Both the position numbers and the translations under genes were made by a program. This document shows positions 4,402-29,117 of a DNA stretch of 39,215 bases, piece after piece. The notes beneath the pieces were generated by a model, which was given only the letters and a program-made list of their open reading frames with translations, ran no database searches and was not told the DNA's origin. The number at the start of each line of letters is the position of its first letter. The stretch's first letter is position 1. This DNA comes from a virus. The stretch lies in IMG/VR virus record IMGVR_UViG_3300037189_016545, positions 1 through 39,215 of that record; one strand, given 5' to 3'.

Positions 4402-5808
4402 ATGCAAAACCAAATGACCCGCGACTTCGGCGCCTTCCGCGCCAAGCTGCTCCTGGTTGCCGCCGTTGGCGCCGCCTTCAGCGTCCCCGGCATCGCCAGC
4501 GCCTACGAAACCCGCGAAGACCCGAACATCAAGAACGTCGCCGACGCCCTGGACAAGATCGCCACCGCCTTCGACGAGTACAAGAAAACCAACGACCAGC
4601 GCCTCGACGAAATCAAGAAAGGCAACGGCACCGCCGACCTCGACGCCAAGCTCGCCCGCATGGACCAGCACATCGATTCCCTGAGCGAAGCCAAGACCCG
4701 CCTCGAAAAGCTCGAAACCAAGCTCGCCCGCCCCGGCGCCTATGGCAACGACGGCAAAGACGGCGAAACCAAAGAAGCCGCCGAATACCGCGAAGCCTTC
4801 CTCGACTGGATGCGCGCCCCGCACGACCACGAGCGCCAGCAGCGTGTCGCCCAGACGCAAAAGGCCCTCGAAACCCGCACCGCCGCCGTCCGCGAAACCC
4901 GCTCCACCGCCACCGTCACCAGCACCGGCGCCGCCGGCGGCTATGCCCTGCCCGAGCAGCTCGAGCGCAGCATCGCCCGCCTGTCGATTGATATCTCCCC
5001 AATCCGCCAGATTGCCACCGTCCGCATGGTCGGCACCACGGACTACAAGGAACTGTTCGACATTAACGGCGCCGGCTTCGAGTGGCTCGGCGAAACCGAC
5101 ACCCGCAACCAGACCAACACCCCGGACCTGGCCGAGGTCGCCCCCACCTTTGGCGTGGCCTCCGCCAAGCCGCAGGCATCGGAAGAGTCGCTCGATGATC
5201 TGTTCTTCAACGTCGAAGACTGGCTGGTGAGCAGCGCCGCCGAAACCCTCGCCGGTGGCGAAGGCGCTGCATTCGTCAGCGGCAACGGCACCAAAAAGCC
5301 TACCGGGTTCTTGGCTGGCACGCCGGTTTCCACAGCCGATTCCTCGCGCGCCTTCGGGGTGTTGCAGTACATCGCCTCCGGCAATGCCGCCACGCTGCCG
5401 ACAGCGCTGGAGACGTTCTATGACGTGGTCTATGCGTTGCGCGCCCGCTACCGCGCCAATGCTCGCTGGGTTACAAGCAAGCTGATTCTCGCCGCCCTGC
5501 GCAAATACAAGGAAGCCACCACCAACGCCTACATGTGGCAGCCCTCCGCCGCCGCCGGGCAGCCGGAGACCTTCATGGGCTACCCGATCAGCGAGGCCGA
5601 AGACATGCCCGCGGTGGCCGCCAACGCCTTCCCGATCGCCTTCGGCGACTTCCGGGAAGGCTACCTGGTCGTCGATCGCGTCGGCATGCGCATCACCCGC
5701 GACGAAATCACCACGCCGGGATACGTCAAGTTTTACGTCCGCAAGCGCGTCGGCGGCAAGATCCGCAACAGCCAGGCCATCAAGCTGCTGAAGCTTGCCA
5801 CGTCGTAA
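4402..5808 (+). CDS. Major capsid protein (HK97 fold)
   Basis: The 468-residue capsid subunit. Residues about 40-115 are a charged coiled coil (delta domain), expected to be cut off by the upstream protease. From about residue 165 (TSTGAAGGYALPEQL) to the end is the HK97 fold, including GNGTKKPTGFL near 297 and the C-terminal DEITTPGYVKFYVRKRVGG typical of the family. ATG 4402 has AAAGGA nine bases upstream. Odd: residues 11-34 look like a Sec signal peptide (basic start, hydrophobic LLLVAAVGAAFSV, then IASA), which is unusual for a capsid protein. A stem-loop terminator follows. Confidence 0.94.
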   Translation: MQNQMTRDFGAFRAKLLLVAAVGAAFSVPGIASAYETREDPNIKNVADALDKIATAFDEYKKTNDQRLDEIKKGNGTADLDAKLARMDQHIDSLSEAKTRLEKLETKLARPGAYGNDGKDGETKEAAEYREAFLDWMRAPHDHERQQRVAQTQKALETRTAAVRETRSTATVTSTGAAGGYALPEQLERSIARLSIDISPIRQIATVRMVGTTDYKELFDINGAGFEWLGETDTRNQTNTPDLAEVAPTFGVASAKPQASEESLDDLFFNVEDWLVSSAAETLAGGEGAAFVSGNGTKKPTGFLAGTPVSTADSSRAFGVLQYIASGNAATLPTALETFYDVVYALRARYRANARWVTSKLILAALRKYKEATTNAYMWQPSAAAGQPETFMGYPISEAEDMPAVAANAFPIAFGDFREGYLVVDRVGMRITRDEITTPGYVKFYVRKRVGGKIRNSQAIKLLKLATS

Positions 5809-22071: not shown

Positions 22072-22124
22072 CGGAAATCCGATCATTGAACGTAAACAAT
22101 ACGTTACATGCGATTGGAAGCAGA

Positions 22125-22170
22125 ATTGTGATTCCGGTTGTCGTGGGTTCGAGCCCCATCGGTCACCCCA
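22125..22170 (+). other. attP-like 3' half of tRNA-His
   Basis: These 46 bases read as the 3' part of a bacterial tRNA-His, from the GTG anticodon loop (ATTGTGATTCCGG) through the T-arm (GTGGGTTCGAGCCCC) to the acceptor end with discriminator C and CCA, as expected for His. The 5' half is absent, so this is not a functional tRNA; temperate phages carry exactly such segments as attP cores to restore the tRNA gene on integration. No integrase gene is found near it or elsewhere in the window. The stretch 22171-22271 up to the cassette shows no gene. Confidence 0.8.
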
Positions 22171-22281
22171 ACAAATCAAGCGCTTAGGCGGTATAGGTAA
22201 GGTAAGCGTTTTCCGGTCGTCCTGTATCAATGTTGTGTCTATCTGAACACAGTGCGGACGCAGAGGGTTGGTTAGGGCACT

Positions 22282-23418
22282 TCAAAACAGCGCCTCCTGC
22301 TTCTGCCTCTCCGGCACACAGTGAGGGCTGCACCACAGGGTTTCCGAGGCGCTGTTCTCAACCGCCTCGTCGGTAATAGCGTAGCCCTTGCGCGCCGTCC
22401 AGGCCCGTGTGTGCCATCCATCCTGCAGCAGCGCGTCATGCTCGCCAGCGTGGCCGCACAGCACGATCCGCAGGCGCTTGTCGTTGCCGTTCTTCGCGCA
22501 CCACGCGCGCACCTTGTCAGCCAGCTCGCCGCCTACGCCACCGGCCGCATAGTCCATCGCGCCTTTGGTGTACGGCGGGTCTAGGAAAACCCCTGTCAGG
22601 CCGTGTCGCACGGTCACGCTGTCAGTCAGCACGCGCTGCCAGTCTCCTACTGTCACGCGCACGCCGCGGGTGCGGTCCATCAACGCGCCGAACCACTCAT
22701 GGATGTACGCGCTGCGGCCCCGGCCCGCGCTCAGGTGCGGCAGTTGCCGGTTCACGCCCTGGCCCGCGTCACCCAGGTGCGGCAGTTGCCGGTTCACGCC
22801 CCGGCCCGCGTCACCCAGGTGCGGCAGTTGCCGGTTCACGCCCTGGCCCGCGCTCAGGTCCGGCAGTTGCCGGTTCACGCCCCGGCCCGCGTCACCCAGG
22901 TGCGGCAGTTTCCGGTTCACGCCCCGGCCCGCGTTACCCAGGTGCGGCAGTTGCCGGGCGTCCACCAGCTTCTCGCCGTCGTGCTGCCACGGCCCGGTGC
23001 CGCTGCACCACCCGCTGCCGATCCAGTTGCATGCCCCCCAGCACCACCACCCCGCCACCTTCGCGTCGTAGTAGTCCGGGTCGGCCTCCAGGCGCTGCAA
23101 CAGGCCAGGCGCATTGCGCACCAGCCACGAGTGCCGCGCTATCAGGTCAGCCTCGTTCGTCGGCCAGTCAACGTGCCGCGCAACCTCGGCAGCATCCAGC
23201 GACACCGCGCGCCAGAAGTTCGCCACGAAGCCATCCGCGTCGTTGATCGTTTCCACCTTGCCAACGTTCGGGCGGCCAAGCAGCATTGCCGCCGAGCCGG
23301 CGAACGGCTCCACGTAGTTCTCGGGGTCGCCCAGCGCGGACCATACCGTTTCGCACGCCAGCGACTTCCCGCCAAAGTACGGAAACGGTGCCGCAAGGGT
23401 GCCTGCTACTGTCTTCAT
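22282..23418 (-). CDS. DNA adenine methyltransferase, D12 (Dam) class, with internal repeats
   Basis: The 378-residue N6-adenine methyltransferase should modify phage or host DNA. Motif I pieces PFPYFGGK (11-18) and EPFAGS (37-42) bind S-adenosylmethionine; DPPY (280-283) is the catalytic motif. Between them, residues 155-235 consist of six near-identical copies of RQLPHLGDAGRGVN (13-14 residues) in the region normally occupied by the target-recognition part. ATG 23418 has GGTGGAGA upstream. The gene is the only one in cassette 1; its stop is 10 bases from the cassette edge. No partner restriction enzyme is nearby, so anti-restriction or epigenetic roles are likely. Confidence 0.92.
   Translation of the reverse strand: MKTVAGTLAAPFPYFGGKSLACETVWSALGDPENYVEPFAGSAAMLLGRPNVGKVETINDADGFVANFWRAVSLDAAEVARHVDWPTNEADLIARHSWLVRNAPGLLQRLEADPDYYDAKVAGWWCWGACNWIGSGWCSGTGPWQHDGEKLVDARQLPHLGNAGRGVNRKLPHLGDAGRGVNRQLPDLSAGQGVNRQLPHLGDAGRGVNRQLPHLGDAGQGVNRQLPHLSAGRGRSAYIHEWFGALMDRTRGVRVTVGDWQRVLTDSVTVRHGLTGVFLDPPYTKGAMDYAAGGVGGELADKVRAWCAKNGNDKRLRIVLCGHAGEHDALLQDGWHTRAWTARKGYAITDEAVENSASETLWCSPHCVPERQKQEALF
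22714..22956. repeat. 39/42-bp tandem repeats inside methyltransferase gene
   Basis: Six tandem units of about 42 bases (two are three bases shorter) sharing a core like GGCAGTTGCCGGTTCACGCC, almost identical at DNA level. They encode the RQLPHLGDAGRGVN repeats. Identity at silent positions points to recent expansion or conversion, so copy number may vary. Confidence 0.92.
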
Positions 23419-23437
23419 CTGCTCTCCACCAAGAAGT

Positions 23438-23491
23438 GCCCTAACACGTCATTCCACCGGACGGCCTTCGGCCGCGCGGTGAATTCCAGCG
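23438..23491 (+). other. attC-like site of cassette 1
   Basis: Begins with the R''-like box GCCCTAAC (23438-23445). The core is an imperfect palindrome: ATTCCACCG pairs with CGGTGAAT leaving a bulged C, and CGGCC TTC GGCCG forms the tip. It ends CCAGCG and then the target ATCGG instead of TTAGGGC, as expected after integration into a non-attC target. Confidence 0.75.
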
Positions 23492-23578
23492 ATCGGCGGC
23501 GATGGTGGCGGTCGGCTCGTGCGGGTAGCGTCGCTTGAGTGCGACGACGGATTGCTTGGGCCAGGGTATGCCCTTCAT
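23441..23578 (-). pseudogene. Truncated Myb/HTH-like protein interrupted by cassette 1
   Basis: A 45-residue frame. The first 29 residues (MKGIPWPKQSVVALKRRYPH then EPTATIAAD) look like the start of a Myb/SANT-like or HTH domain found in phage HNH-type proteins (W...L...YP....IA). The remaining residues are translated from the attC hairpin of cassette 1 and are Arg/Gly/Pro-rich. If cassette 1 is removed on paper, the frame continues ten more codons and stops, so the native C-terminus may have been lost earlier by a separate event. It starts one base after the stop of the frame at 23580. Confidence 0.5.
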
Positions 23579-23579
23579 G

Positions 23580-23694
23580 TCAGTGCTCGCCTCGCACGAC
23601 TTCGATTTCCGGATCGAGCGGGGCGAGGCGCTCCAGTGTCGTGGCTGAGCGGCGCATGAGCGCGGCGGCGCGCTTGTGGTCGTACCACTCCTCG
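23580..23694 (-). pseudogene. 3' part of small gene split by cassette 2
   Basis: The C-terminal 37 codons of a 62-codon phage gene, EEWYDHKRAAALMRRSATTL and on to RGEH. Together with 24502-24575 it forms one continuous frame when cassette 2 is excised at its G|TT and G|AT boundaries. In the current sequence this part could still be translated from TTG 23705, which overlaps the methyltransferase stop in a TTGA quartet, giving a 41-residue protein beginning MSPNEEWYDH. Function unknown; composition is helical and charged. Confidence 0.75.
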
Positions 23695-23701
23695 TTAGGG
23701 C

Positions 23702-24424
23702 TCAAAACCCCATGCCCTGCTGTTCGGCCACCGGGGCGGCTTCTTCGTCCAGCAGGGAGCCTTGCGCCTGCGCTTGCCGTATGCGCTCGCAGGCAATCTC
23801 AAAATACTTTGGCTCTCGTTCAATGCCCACGAACTGCCGTCCCTGCTGCACGGCAGCAACGCCAGTCGTTCCGCTGCCCATGAACGGGTCCAACACGGTT
23901 TCGCCGCGCCTGGTGGTCAGCGCCACAAGCCAGCGCATCCAGCCCACCGGCTTTGGCACCGGGTGGCCGTTCTTCTCTGCCGTCTCGTTGCTGGCAATCA
24001 CGGTCGGGTACTGCGCGCCCTTGTGCAAGTCCGGGTATGCGCCGTACAGCAGCACCGGCAGGAAGTTCTTAAACCCCCACTGGTGGCGCCCGGTCGCAGC
24101 AGAGCAGTACACGCCGCCCAGCGCGTCGAACTTCGGCAGTTCGTGAATGTGTGGGCCAATGAACACAGCCGCGCGCCCGGTCAGTTGCATGGCCTGCGTC
24201 AGCGCCGGAACAACCTGCGTCACGTAGTTCTCGTAGGTGTCGGCGTAGCTCGCGTAGGCTTGCAATTGCAGGCCATGCGCACCGCCGCTGCCCTTCGTGC
24301 TGCCAAGGTCAACACCGTAGGGTGGGTCGGTAATCGTGGCGTCGCACGCATCCAGCGTGGGCAGCACCTCTCGGCAGTCCCCCAGGTAAAGCGTCGCTCG
24401 GCCAATCGTCACCTTCTCAACCAT
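23702..24424 (-). CDS. DNA methyltransferase, N4/N6 beta class
   Basis: The 240-residue site-specific DNA methyltransferase. The catalytic motif DPPYG (33-37) precedes the SAM-binding motif VLDPFMGSGTTGVAAV (about 178-193), the motif order of the beta class (N6-adenine or N4-cytosine). A W/H-rich middle (PHIHELPKFDALGGVYCSA, about 91-110) would hold the recognition region. I use ATG 24424 (MVEKVTIGRATLYLGD), with GAGGA seven bases upstream, rather than ATG 24466, which lies in the attC hairpin. Sole gene of cassette 2. Probably protects phage DNA from host restriction. Confidence 0.92.
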   Translation of the reverse strand: MVEKVTIGRATLYLGDCREVLPTLDACDATITDPPYGVDLGSTKGSGGAHGLQLQAYASYADTYENYVTQVVPALTQAMQLTGRAAVFIGPHIHELPKFDALGGVYCSAATGRHQWGFKNFLPVLLYGAYPDLHKGAQYPTVIASNETAEKNGHPVPKPVGWMRWLVALTTRRGETVLDPFMGSGTTGVAAVQQGRQFVGIEREPKYFEIACERIRQAQAQGSLLDEEAAPVAEQQGMGF

Positions 24425-24447
24425 CTGTTGTCCTCGTTGCAAATGCA

Positions 24448-24501
24448 GCCCTAACAGGTCGCTCAAACGGACGGGCCTACAGCCCGCCGTTTAGCTTTGC
24501 G
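24448..24501 (+). other. attC-like site of cassette 2
   Basis: R''-like box GCCCTAAC (24448-24455), spacer AGGTCGCTC, then stem AAACGG-CGGGC / GCCCG-CCGTTT with one extrahelical A in the left arm and loop CTACA, then AGCTTTGCG. The layout and the single extra base match typical 60-bp integron attC sites closely. The R' half is displaced to the other end of the cassette (23694-23701). Confidence 0.82.
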
Positions 24502-24575
24502 ATGTGCGCCGCGACTTCGCGCAGCTCGGTGGCGAGATCGAGCAGGGCGGTCGATCCATAGTGCACTTTAGTCAT
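24502..24575 (-). pseudogene. 5' part of small gene split by cassette 2
   Basis: ATG 24575 and the following 24 codons plus two bases (MTKVHYGSTALLDLATELRE then VAAH) run up to the cassette edge. The frame then enters the attC hairpin and leaves its native sequence. The ATG overlaps the stop of the upstream gene (24568) by eight bases, as usual in this operon. Joined to 23580-23694 it gives a 62-residue protein of unknown function. Confidence 0.75.
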
Positions 24576-25262: not shown

Positions 25263-25523
25263 TCAAGGGCGCAGCATCTTGCGACGCAGCCACGGATGCG
25301 CGCGCATGGCGCAGATGATGGCCAGCGGCCCTCCGGCGAGGTAGCAGGCGACCTCGAGGCCGGTGGCGTCGGGCGCCATCTTGTAGAGCGCGAGCTGGCT
25401 CAGGCCAATGAACAGGCTGGTGAAGAAGGCGGCGATCTGGTGGCCGTGCTGCACGTTGAGCTGCTGCACGCCGAGCAGGAAGACCAGGGCGAAAGTGCTC
25501 GCGAAAAGTGCGATGGCGTTCAT
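25263..25523 (-). CDS. Small membrane protein downstream of ParB-like gene
   Basis: The 86-residue protein has two or three hydrophobic segments: ALFASTFALVFLLGVQQL (about 5-22), IAAFFTSLFIGLSQLALYKM (about 30-49) and VACYLAGGPLAIICAM (about 58-73), with a basic C-terminus (HPWLRRKMLRP). The pattern, a holin-like or DUF-type membrane protein, has no certain family. ATG 25523 overlaps the ParB-like stop (ATGA). Confidence 0.72.
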   Translation of the reverse strand: MNAIALFASTFALVFLLGVQQLNVQHGHQIAAFFTSLFIGLSQLALYKMAPDATGLEVACYLAGGPLAIICAMRAHPWLRRKMLRP

Positions 25524-27391
25524 ACGCGTGAGCCTCGCGGGAATGGCCAGGCGGCAAACAGATTCAAGTCACCGGTTTTAACCGGCGCAGCCGGTTCGTT
25601 CGCCGGCAACGCCGGCGCTGGATCTGCTTTTGCCTTGGCTTTTTTCGCCGTAGAGTTCAGGGCCGGCTTTGCGTTATCGGCCGGCGCAGCCGCCGCGCCT
25701 ATATCTTTCGCTTGCGCAGCTTTGGAAGGTGGGGAAGCGGATTTTGCCGCTTTCGGTTTTTCAGTTTTGGGCTGCACTTTCGGTTCGCGCAGGGCTTCGG
25801 CATCGATGCCAAGTCGTGCTGACTGGGCCAGCAGGAGAAGGGGTTTCGGCTGGTTGTTACCATTGAAAGCCCACACGCCGACTTGCGTGTCATCGATCAA
25901 GGTGATGTCCGTCAGGAGCAGCAACAATTCCGAAAGCATGAGCTTGTCGAAAATGTGATTCAACGCGTCGAGTTCGTCTTCCTGGCGGCTCTCGGGGTCT
26001 GGAACTTCCAGTCCCCACAGCAATATCAACTCCTCGCTCGCTGCCGAGCCGGTTTCGAGCATCTGCCTGAACAGTTCCGTGATGATCGGCAGCAGATCCG
26101 TCCTGTCGAATGTGTTCGAAGAAAAGCGCTCCCTCAGCTTGATCCGGATGGCCTGAAACAGCTTGCCACGCCAGTTGTTCTCGGCTGCTGCCTGTTCCTC
26201 GCGCTTTGTCCTTTCGGCCGCGTAGTCACGGTCGGCGCGATCCGTCGTCACGGTCTTATGGGCCGGCTCGATGCCGGCCTTTTTCAAGGCGGCGGCGAGC
26301 AGTTTGGTATCGACGGCCTCGATGAAAGCCTTGGCGCGGGCGTCCTCGACATACGTGATGGACGGCGCTGCTTTGCCTAGAATCTCGCGGTAGGTCCGGT
26401 GCTCTTGATCGTCATGGCAGGTGTCATCGATGTTGGCCAGGTTGAACGTGGCCAGGCTGTGCCGACCGCTGACCAGCATCTTGGAGGCTTCCTTGCCGCT
26501 GATGATTTCCCTTCCGGTTTTTTCAGCAAGCACTTTGAGGCGCAGGTAATTGGCTTCCTTCTTGTTCTGGAAACACGGCGGATCGGTGCAAACGTTTGGA
26601 CTGCCGATGTCGGCGAATAGCATCAGGTCGTTGCCGCTGCGCTTGGGACAGGCGTCGCAGCTTCCGGCCTTGGGGACCAGGGCCGCATCATCCATCTTGA
26701 AGCTGGCATCCTCCAGATCGAGCATGTACTGCTGCTGGATGTACTCGGCGGCGCGGCGATACGACATGACGTCGCCCTGCCAATCCGGCGTGGTGATCTC
26801 GCCGGCGGCCTTGACTTGCAGTGTGGTGCCGGGGATGCGCGCGATCAGCAGAGCGTTGCTGGCCGTGAGCTTGCCGTCGTAGAACAGATCCCGCGCGGCC
26901 GGCGCCAAGGCGGTAAGCTTGAGCCTGGCATAAATGTAGGCGCGGCTTTTGCCGATCTTCTCGGCCAGCGTGTCGGCGGTGTAGTCGTGGTACTTGATCA
27001 GCCGCTCATAGCCTTCGGCCTCCTCGATCGGATGAACGTCTTCGCGCTGCAAATTCTCAACTACCTGCAGCTCCAGCACTTGCTTGTCGGTCAGTTCGAG
27101 GACCAGGGCGGGGATGGTGACCATGCCGGCGATCTGACTGGCGCGCCAGCGCCGTTCGCCGCAGACGATCTCGTGTTTGTCCAGCATATCGCCGAAGCAT
27201 TTCTCCCGCGGCATATGCATGCCGACCTGCCAGCGGCGCACCAGGATCGGCTGCAGCACGCCGTGGGCCTTGATGCTGCTGGCTAGCTCGTCGAGTTTGG
27301 CCTGGTCAAAGTGTTTGCGTGGGTTGCTCGGCGACTGGATGATGTCGGTCAGCGGGATCAGCAATGTGGCAGGGGATTCTGGGGCGTTCAT
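25520..27391 (-). CDS. ParB/RepB/Spo0J-like protein
   Basis: The 623-residue protein. Residues about 10-110 form the ParB N-terminal domain (LTDIIQSPSNPRKHFDQAKL, HGVLQPILVRRW, IVCGERRWRAS) including the GERR nucleotide-binding motif. A helix-turn-helix lies near 145-170 (YTADTLAEKIGKSRAYIYAR). A cysteine cluster GSCDACPKRSGN and CTDPPCF (about 230-270) may bind zinc. The end is a low-complexity Ala/Lys-rich tail. No ParA is present, so the role may be DNA condensation, nuclease or transcription control rather than plasmid partition; such orphan ParB-like proteins are known in phage early operons. ATGA overlap with the RT stop. Confidence 0.85.
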   Translation of the reverse strand: MNAPESPATLLIPLTDIIQSPSNPRKHFDQAKLDELASSIKAHGVLQPILVRRWQVGMHMPREKCFGDMLDKHEIVCGERRWRASQIAGMVTIPALVLELTDKQVLELQVVENLQREDVHPIEEAEGYERLIKYHDYTADTLAEKIGKSRAYIYARLKLTALAPAARDLFYDGKLTASNALLIARIPGTTLQVKAAGEITTPDWQGDVMSYRRAAEYIQQQYMLDLEDASFKMDDAALVPKAGSCDACPKRSGNDLMLFADIGSPNVCTDPPCFQNKKEANYLRLKVLAEKTGREIISGKEASKMLVSGRHSLATFNLANIDDTCHDDQEHRTYREILGKAAPSITYVEDARAKAFIEAVDTKLLAAALKKAGIEPAHKTVTTDRADRDYAAERTKREEQAAAENNWRGKLFQAIRIKLRERFSSNTFDRTDLLPIITELFRQMLETGSAASEELILLWGLEVPDPESRQEDELDALNHIFDKLMLSELLLLLTDITLIDDTQVGVWAFNGNNQPKPLLLLAQSARLGIDAEALREPKVQPKTEKPKAAKSASPPSKAAQAKDIGAAAAPADNAKPALNSTAKKAKAKADPAPALPANEPAAPVKTGDLNLFAAWPFPRGSRV

Positions 27392-28767
27392 AGGGATCTC
27401 CGATACGTTTTGGTGAAATCTCCGCAGATCGTGTGACCGCGATCGCGCAGCAGGTTGGCAAGCCGCGCGCGGTCGACGTGGCTGTGGGTGGTTTGGCGCA
27501 GCAGGCCGAAATAGCTGTTGGCGGTGTGGAACAGATCCTCGGCCGGGATCGTGGCGACACGGCGCAGGGCGTCGTGGTATGTCCGGCGGCGCAGGGTGCG
27601 ATGCCAGGGCCGGATCACCTGGCCGACAAAATCAATGCCGCGGTCGATCGGCTGCAGGATGGTCTTGCGCGGGTTGATGGCGAGCTGCAGGTGCGCCGGC
27701 AGCCAGGCCTCGATGTCGGCGTTGGCCTGGTTGAGCCAGTCGGCGGACTCGTGCAGCAGCACCATGTCGTCTACGTAGCGGATGTAGTGCCGCGCCTTCA
27801 GGTTGTGCTTGATGTGCTGGTCTAGCGCATCGAGCAGGACGTTGGCAAAGAACTGGCTTGAGAGGTTGCCGATCGGCAGGCCGTGGTGCGCGTCCTGGTT
27901 GAAGAGGCTCTTGTGCGCGGGAACGCGCGCAAACTCGTCAGGCCGGCCCTGCACGACGACGTTCTGGCGCGGGTCATGGAACAGGATGTCCAGCGCCAGT
28001 TGTCGCCACCAGGGCTCGCTGATGCGCCGCGTGAGCTGCTCGGCGGCGATGCGCTTGTCGATGCTGACGAAAAAGTTGGCGAGGTCGAGCTTGAGGTAGT
28101 AGCCGGGGCGGCTCCAGTTCTGCGTCTGGCTGCGGACTTTGCCTTCGAGGCGCCGGGCCGCATAGAGCGTGCCGCGCTCAGGGATACAGGCGCAACTGTC
28201 GGCGACGAAGCCGGCCTCGAAGCGGGGGCCGATCTTGCGGTAGAGCAGGTGGTGCACAATGCGGTCGCGGAAAGCGGCTGCCCAGACTTCCCGCACCTTG
28301 GGGCGGGTGATGATGAAGCAGATCGACGGGCCGGGGCGATAGGCGCCGCTGGTCAGCTCGTCGTGCAGCGTGGCCAGGTTGTATTCGAGCCGCTGCTCGA
28401 AGGTCAGGGCGCTGGCGCTGTTGCGCTTGGTGCGCCGGCAATCGAGGTAGGCCTCGACGAGATCCGTGAAAGAAAATTCAGCGGGGTGGCGTGGATCATC
28501 TGCGGACGGCTCGGGCGCGGCACTGGTTGTTGATGTGGTTGTTGTTCTGGTTGCCGTTGTTGAAGTTCTGATACCAGGCATACCTCGCGTCGGAGGCGTC
28601 GATGTCGCACTATCGACGTCGCCCGGCCGATCGCTCGACCAGGTAACTGCGCCGGACCTTTCCGGCGCGCTGCCGGAGGTCTCCGTGATGCGCATGGCGG
28701 TGCCCTCGTGGGGCAGCGGCGCGACCAGATTGATCATTCGCACGGGCGTGATGGCCATGACCGTCAT
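27388..28767 (-). CDS. DGR reverse transcriptase
   Basis: Reverse transcriptase that copies TR RNA with adenine-specific errors. Motifs: LKLDLANFFVSID (about 225-237) with the first catalytic Asp, GLPIGNLSSQFFANV (about 296-310), a GNxxSQ form typical of DGR and group II-like enzymes, and YVDDMVLLH (about 331-339) with the active-site Asp pair. The start is uncertain: ATG 28767 overlaps the avd stop in ATGA (459 residues), but ATG 28695 or 28581 are also possible. The RT fold proper begins near FSFTDLVEAYLDCRR (about residue 98). If translation starts at 28767 it runs straight through the TR in another frame, producing a Thr-rich linker. Confidence 0.93.
   Translation of the reverse strand: MTVMAITPVRMINLVAPLPHEGTAMRITETSGSAPERSGAVTWSSDRPGDVDSATSTPPTRGMPGIRTSTTATRTTTTSTTSAAPEPSADDPRHPAEFSFTDLVEAYLDCRRTKRNSASALTFEQRLEYNLATLHDELTSGAYRPGPSICFIITRPKVREVWAAAFRDRIVHHLLYRKIGPRFEAGFVADSCACIPERGTLYAARRLEGKVRSQTQNWSRPGYYLKLDLANFFVSIDKRIAAEQLTRRISEPWWRQLALDILFHDPRQNVVVQGRPDEFARVPAHKSLFNQDAHHGLPIGNLSSQFFANVLLDALDQHIKHNLKARHYIRYVDDMVLLHESADWLNQANADIEAWLPAHLQLAINPRKTILQPIDRGIDFVGQVIRPWHRTLRRRTYHDALRRVATIPAEDLFHTANSYFGLLRQTTHSHVDRARLANLLRDRGHTICGDFTKTYRRSL
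28498..28599 (-). repeat. DGR template repeat (TR)
   Basis: A 102-bp repeat upstream of the RT core, matching VR1 and VR2. In the VR frame it would encode ARYAWYQNFNNGNQNNNHIN, with ten AAC codons, the signature of a DGR template built for adenine mutagenesis. The invariant GC-rich end (CAGTGCCGCGCCCGAGCC and on, near 28498-28525) is the likely initiation of mutagenic homing segment. It sits inside the open frame of the reverse transcriptase. Confidence 0.95.
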
Positions 28768-29117
28768 GCAGCAGGCGAGACTGCGGACTTGCGCCACCCG
28801 GTGGCCTGCTTGCCGATACTCTGAGTCAGCTCAACGGCTTTGGCATATTGGCCGGTCGAGATGAGCCGCTTGTCGCGCGCCAGGCGCAGCAGCAGCTCCG
28901 CCACCTGCAGGCGCTCGATGAGCGTGCCCAGGTGCGGGGCCTTGTCGCGTGCGACATTGGCGCGGAAGATCAGCGTCAGGATCTCGATGCACTCGTCGCG
29001 GAGCTTGCCGCCGATCGATGCCTTGAAGTCGCGGGGCATGTTCTTGGCAAGATCCATGATGGCGTCGAAAAGCCCGTAGGCGACCTTGTAAATCGGCAGT
29101 TGCGTGTGCAGAGCCAT
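28764..29117 (-). CDS. avd: DGR accessory variability determinant (Avd)
   Basis: The 117-residue, basic four-helix-bundle protein (S23-like). The pattern YKVAYGLFDAIMDLAKNMPRDFKASIGGKLRDECIEIL is characteristic of Avd. It forms a pentameric barrel that binds the reverse transcriptase and TR RNA and is needed for mutagenic homing. It lies between target gene 1 and the reverse transcriptase, the common DGR order target-avd-TR-RT. Its stop overlaps ATG 28767 of the RT frame. Confidence 0.92.
   Translation of the reverse strand: MALHTQLPIYKVAYGLFDAIMDLAKNMPRDFKASIGGKLRDECIEILTLIFRANVARDKAPHLGTLIERLQVAELLLRLARDKRLISTGQYAKAVELTQSIGKQATGWRKSAVSPAA

Follow-up and report, generated by a model that had tools for sequence, protein, structure and literature searches.

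Two single-gene, phage-adapted integron cassettes very probably lie stranded in this phage genome, in the place that a complete integron occupies in related temperate phages. Both were found in the window (the whole stretch of 39,215 nucleotides that was analysed), and both hold a methylase gene. Integrons are known as bacterial platforms, and cases in phages have been read as occasional captures. We consider it likely that a temperate proteobacterial phage lineage domesticated an integron, with an IntI and an attI of its own and with attC sites turned so that the phage operon would transcribe the cassettes, and that the resulting platform swaps counter-defence genes between phages.

The window is a tailed-phage genome or a fragment of one, with genes for terminase, portal, tape measure, tail and primase. 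On its minus strand, the end of a 219-aa gene is followed by the start of a 62-codon gene, cassette 1, the rest of the 62-codon gene, the start of an HTH gene, cassette 2 and an attP-like tRNA-His end. The last of these is the 3′ half of a tRNA-His gene (22,122–22,171) without an adjoining integrase; no IntI, attI-like sequence or tyrosine recombinase/integrase was found in the window. Elsewhere in this phage, which has an attP-like tRNA end and no tyrosine integrase, positions 25,520–27,391 encode a ParB-like protein (ParB_N, HTH_ParB). Positions 27,388–29,117 look like a diversity-generating retroelement, with a reverse transcriptase, an RT-15 RNA (168 bits) and a bAvd-like protein.

Cassette 1 spans 807 bp (23,695–24,501; + by the polarity of its attC) and begins with TTAGGGC (23,695–23,701, +), which would complete R′ upon circularisation, the crossover falling after G23694. 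Read along the plus strand, it consists of G|TTAGGGC, an antisense methylase gene, GCCCTAAC, the attC arm and G|ATG. The arm has 54 bp (24,448–24,501, +), in the order R″ GCCCTAAC, spacer, L″ GCT(C)AAACGG, L′ CCGTTTAGC, spacer and G. The ORF encodes an N6_N4_Mtase DNA methylase of 240 aa (23,702–24,424, −; Pfam PF01555, E 7.9e-23) with the motif order DPPY, then FxGxG. On either side lie the 5′ part (24,502–24,575, −) and the 3′ part (23,580–23,694, −) of the split phage gene. An earlier note on this DNA had given the coordinates, start and arm of the unit just as they stand here; its 61-bp joined attC, with fully paired R boxes and one extrahelical C, was recomputed with the same outcome, and the 62-codon frame that appears when the unit is removed was reproduced.

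That note had also proposed a search for an uninterrupted homologue of the joined 62-aa protein. Such homologues exist in four viral contigs of IMG/VR (L002–L005), with 70% identity over 56 aa and 62% over 58 aa and without a gap at the junction, and the nucleotide alignment with these uninterrupted relatives is gap-free there as well; none was found among 50,697 INPHARED records. The methylase gene is 96% and 91% identical in nucleotides to those of two further contigs (L006 and L007, respectively), and both alignments stop at 23,693, the predicted left edge of the cassette. Cassette 1 is a discrete unit with an empty site, and its G|AT join, which the earlier note had described, fits a non-canonical IntI target. 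With support from both the attC model described below and the uninterrupted homologues, the proposal that a methylase cassette splits a phage gene is supported: the 807-bp unit is an integron cassette inserted in the 62-codon gene.

TTAGGGC occurs four times in the window, as two pairs, and only at the ends of the two cassettes. Joined to its own start, each arm gives an attC of 61 bp in which the R boxes pair at 7/7 and the L boxes at 8/8 positions, with one extrahelical C in L″; the paired R and L boxes, the spacers and the extrahelical base of an integron cassette are all present. No attC family in Rfam matched here. A strict regular-expression scan overlooked most array sites because the R boxes of neighbouring cassettes differ, so we built a covariance model (R1) from 26 chromosomal-integron attC sites, without any phage sequence. 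Run over the whole window with no filters, R1 returned the two cassette arms as its top two matches, both on the plus strand, despite the R′ half missing in place. The arm of cassette 1 scored 23.9 bits (E 7.7e-4) and that of cassette 2 scored 30.6 bits (E 1.9e-5); the next-best match had an E of 0.23, so that the covariance check proposed for cassette 1 placed its arm above background.

A scan of the window for split cassettes returned exactly two units, cassettes 1 and 2. At the loose setting, chance supplies about 0.33 matches per shuffled window; at the strict setting, with full pairing, 600 dinucleotide shuffles gave 33 matches, and at least two on one strand in two instances. One could argue from the loose matches (about 0.3 per shuffled window) that chance or terminators account for the palindromes and that the “cassette” is an ordinary gene acquisition. 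We find this barely credible, given a pair of full-score units on one strand that share the same box, the matches to the covariance model, the exact breaks in homology and the empty-site gene. Terminator hairpins and chance palindromes were ruled out by the empty-site homologues and by an attC arm that moves together with its gene.

Cassette 2 (22,272–23,491; 1,220 bp; polarity +, as for cassette 1; ORF antisense) was absent from the earlier note, as were the reversed polarity of the ORFs and the phage-borne integrase of the relatives. Its plus strand runs G|TTAGGGC, antisense D12 methylase, GCCCTAAC, arm and CCAGCG|ATC. The arm (23,438–23,491, +) contains R″ GCCCTAAC, L″ ATT(C)CACCGG and L′ CGGTGAAT, and its edge was set by comparison with methylase-2 relatives (L171–L180). 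Encoded in the cassette is a D12-class adenine methylase of 378 aa (22,282–23,418, −; PF02086, E 1.1e-5). Among these relatives the arm, TTAGGGC, the ORF and GCCCTAA are kept as a block while both flanks change. Six viral contigs have the arm, the ORF leader, the ORF and GAAGTGCCCTAAC in common and vary in what precedes the arm and what follows GCCCTAAC. The arm thus moves together with the ORF behind it, which puts the attC on the 5′ side of the gene. As a separate observation, the middle of the D12 methylase gene contains six tandem copies of 39–42 bp (22,675–22,999) that encode repeats of 13–14 aa (GVNRQLPHLGDAGR). The gene is 1140 nt long in L171 and near 1014 in the others, and the number of repeats may vary among relatives.

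The target of cassette 2 is a truncated HTH gene (23,492–23,578, −), a homologue of which lies just 3′ of intI in one relative (L058). Its 5′ part is intact. The sequence past the other edge of the cassette is unrelated to the HTH gene, which means that material was lost or exchanged there; excising unit 2 does not rebuild its target gene, and no register gives a sensible fusion. The edges of cassette 2 are established by the comparison with relatives, and an empty site is available for unit 1 only. Cassettes 1 and 2 occupy G|AT sites in genes that follow one another, both right edges being G|AT (n = 2 sites), and with two attC sites about 1 kb apart and no intI the window contains a CALIN.

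The relatives are IMG/VR contigs, that is, metagenomic assemblies, several of them fragmentary. In phage contigs with an intact 62-aa gene, the stretch just downstream of it holds attC sites and cassette ORFs, followed by an integron integrase and, after that, a phage integrase. The integron integrases match TIGR02249 at 450–482 bits (cut-off 265), and two of the records that carry them (G002 and G003) hold terminase, head-tail and tail genes. What links the window to these IntI phages is the 62-aa gene, DNA of the holin region (about 80% identical to G002) and the tRNA-His end (94% identical to L056). A complete integron, with intI and attI in one record, occurs in relatives and not in the window. 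No IntI was found in three contigs with methylase-2 arrays (L173, L179 and L180), which are possibly fragments.

A scan found 53 viral loci with a related IntI. In a FastTree phylogeny of viral IntIs and those from 76 loci of bacterial genomes, a single clade (support 93) unites 31 viral sequences with two MAG contigs. One of the latter (L091) has IntI and array DNA that match those of the phage loci, and the other (L092) has attC sites with the polarity of the phage loci. The attI is conserved in the clade, as GTGTCGTTGAATTTAAG|TT and variants, between the last cassette and the start of intI, and most records tested have a second tyrosine recombinase within a few kb of intI. A tblastn search with phage-clade IntI against 50,697 phage records returned nine records, none above 58% identity. 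Separately, Virus Rctr41k (L188, KX853513.1, 41 kb) encodes at 4680–5678 an IntI-like protein, annotated xerD, that is 48% identical to the phage IntI; R1 gave no attC in the stretch of this record that was fetched.

In the usual cassette the ORF is sense to the attC, so that the Pc promoter at attI transcribes it, and a minority of known cassettes are otherwise. Both window cassettes depart from this form and read backward. The polarity of attC relative to intI is the same for nearly all matches at viral and chromosomal loci; what differs is the direction of the ORFs. Among viral loci, 60 of the 62 scored cassettes have ORFs antisense to attC, toward attI/intI, against 7 of 66 in the chromosomal controls, where the other 59 read away from attI/intI. 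Fisher's test gives p of about 1e-25, a value that overstates the evidence because cassettes that share a contig do not count as independent. Merging near-copies among loci left 54 antisense and 1 sense (54 of 55 clusters), the backward direction is consistent across more than 20 contigs, and the methylase-2 arrays add 28 antisense cassettes and 0 sense. Direction was scored by a codon model trained alike on the IntI genes of both groups, leaving out intervals without a clear ORF (29 viral; 74 chromosomal, plus 6 ambiguous). It replaced a count by plain ORF length that was noisy (36 versus 14), since attC contains stops and the G+C here makes for long antisense ORFs. Cassettes are reported to face Pc normally through a choice of strand by attC features (PMC8946536).

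Two viral intervals are sense-oriented (L029 16,639–17,173 and L041 6449–6806); the former holds an HTH regulator-like ORF, which may have its own promoter. A 43-kb viral contig (L067) also has a backward array, and its IntI falls outside the main phage clade, among chromosomal IntIs of Gallionella/Thiobacillus. The array of L067 is perhaps a second origin, and on its account the polarity tracks a single IntI clade imperfectly.

Since attC is near-palindromic and is oriented by its extrahelical base and the lengths of its spacers, the backward orientation might be suspected to be an artefact of polarity assignment. We regard this as very unlikely. The chromosomal-only model splits the two strands by 48–60 bits in those strong controls for which both strands are listed (L109, L121 and L126), and under the same model R1 the published cassettes of phage TJE1 come out forward. 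Moreover, the arm is 5′ of the ORF in attI-proximal units and in both lone units of the window, and it co-moves with the ORF downstream of it.

As to cargo, a Pfam search of 54 nonredundant viral cassette proteins returned N6_N4 methylases, Dam, two Mom proteins, Lar restriction alleviation, two PAPS reductase-like proteins and one Acb2/Tad1 hairpin protein; most of the proteins had no family match. Further methylases come from the methylase-2 arrays. Chromosomal control cassettes hold BrnT toxins, GNAT acetyltransferases and others. From the family names, the viral cargo would be counter-defence, with the Acb2/Tad1 hairpin protein acting as a nucleotide sponge against CBASS or Thoeris; the methylases of the window most likely protect phage DNA from restriction. 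In one contig (L003 6056–6637), an HNH endonuclease-like ORF seems to break up the methylase gene of a cassette, which would be one mobile element lodged in another.

In the mechanism that we propose, an IntI encoded by the phage would recombine the folded bottom strand of attC and so release a cassette, and the excised circle would enter a site through a crossover next to G. Cassettes captured at attI would read with the phage operon and intI because their ORFs are antisense to the attC polarity, and the layout suggests that each new cassette would be placed last in the operon and in sense with it. In the window, cassette 1 would have entered G|AT inside the 62-codon gene, not attI, and cassette 2 the G|AT of the following HTH gene, with the far-side sequence later lost. 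IntI would have acted in trans, supplied perhaps by another phage or by the host, or been lost afterwards.

A sub-case of this explanation, differing in the order of events, is that the window holds a decayed phage integron, which once included intI, attI and the phage integrase and of which deletion spared the two cassettes. The locus order is the same as in the IntI phages, the attP-like tRNA-His end stands without an integrase, and on one side cassette 2 joins unrelated sequence 100 bp away. However, the 62-aa gene runs straight into the HTH gene and leaves no room for a lost array, both cassettes occupy non-attI G|AT sites, and there is no trace of an attI. We deem this order of events possible, its probability being somewhat short of even.

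Alternatively, the integrase of a host chromosomal integron may have inserted cassettes from the host pool, the phage being a passive target. The window is without IntI, IntI1 acts on attC sites of phages (Qi et al. 2023, PMC9892861) and uses attG sites (Loot et al. 2024, to the extent cited in PMC12901181), and one structural model covers phage and chromosomal attC sites, all of which would suit a host enzyme. We nevertheless find it unlikely: relatives of both methylases lie beside attC of backward polarity in the viral contigs searched, chromosomal arrays are mostly forward, and the locus is where relatives carry an integron of their own.

If the reading of phage-adapted cassettes from a phage-resident integron is true, viruses would possess a dedicated system of gene exchange in this lineage, equipped with an integrase and attI of its own and with backward cassettes, and it would explain the reshuffling of anti-restriction genes between phages. 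It would also offer a natural test of the determinants of cassette orientation, only the attC polarity being turned, and tools that assume forward cassettes may misassign attC to ORF in backward arrays.

The suggestion in the earlier note that cassettes were an undescribed feature of phage genomes fails, because phages have already been reported to carry integrons, clusters of attC and cassettes with methylases (PMC9892861). The screen of 10,705 phage genomes by Qi et al. 2023 yielded 3 complete integrons, one In0 and 17 CALINs, with methylases in some (PMC9892861). The open-access literature, with subscription papers and preprints outside the search, gave no further report of phage or viral integrons and no description of backward phage cassettes, which is weak evidence of absence. 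The wider picture of a phage IntI, attI and backward arrays at one locus looks new.

The units in the window resemble the integron gene cassette in the order R″-L″-L′-R′, one extrahelical base, a G|TTRRRY boundary and a single promoterless-looking ORF, and the arrays of relatives adjoin intI/attI; they differ in that the ORF is antisense to attC and the units stand alone at non-attI phage sites. With the insertions by IntI1 at non-attI genomic sites, attG, as Loot et al. 2024 is cited in PMC12901181, they would share a lone cassette, a non-attI site and a G|AT crossover, the target of the putative insertion here being a phage gene. In reverse integrons, found in Treponema and others, intI is transcribed toward attI (PMC3607928, PMC6557892). 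Cassette genes and intI share a reading direction there as in the phage relatives, but in the latter attI lies upstream (5′) of intI as usual and it is the cassette ORFs that are turned, by which a Treponema-type reverse integron was ruled out. The integrons and CALINs that Qi et al. 2023 describe in phages come close, with methylase cassettes in phages and attC sites without intI; whereas those represent host integrons picked up sporadically (Vibrio, Shewanella, class 1) or small groups of attC sites (PMC9892861), here one IntI clade, with its attI and backward arrays, is resident in many uncultured phages.
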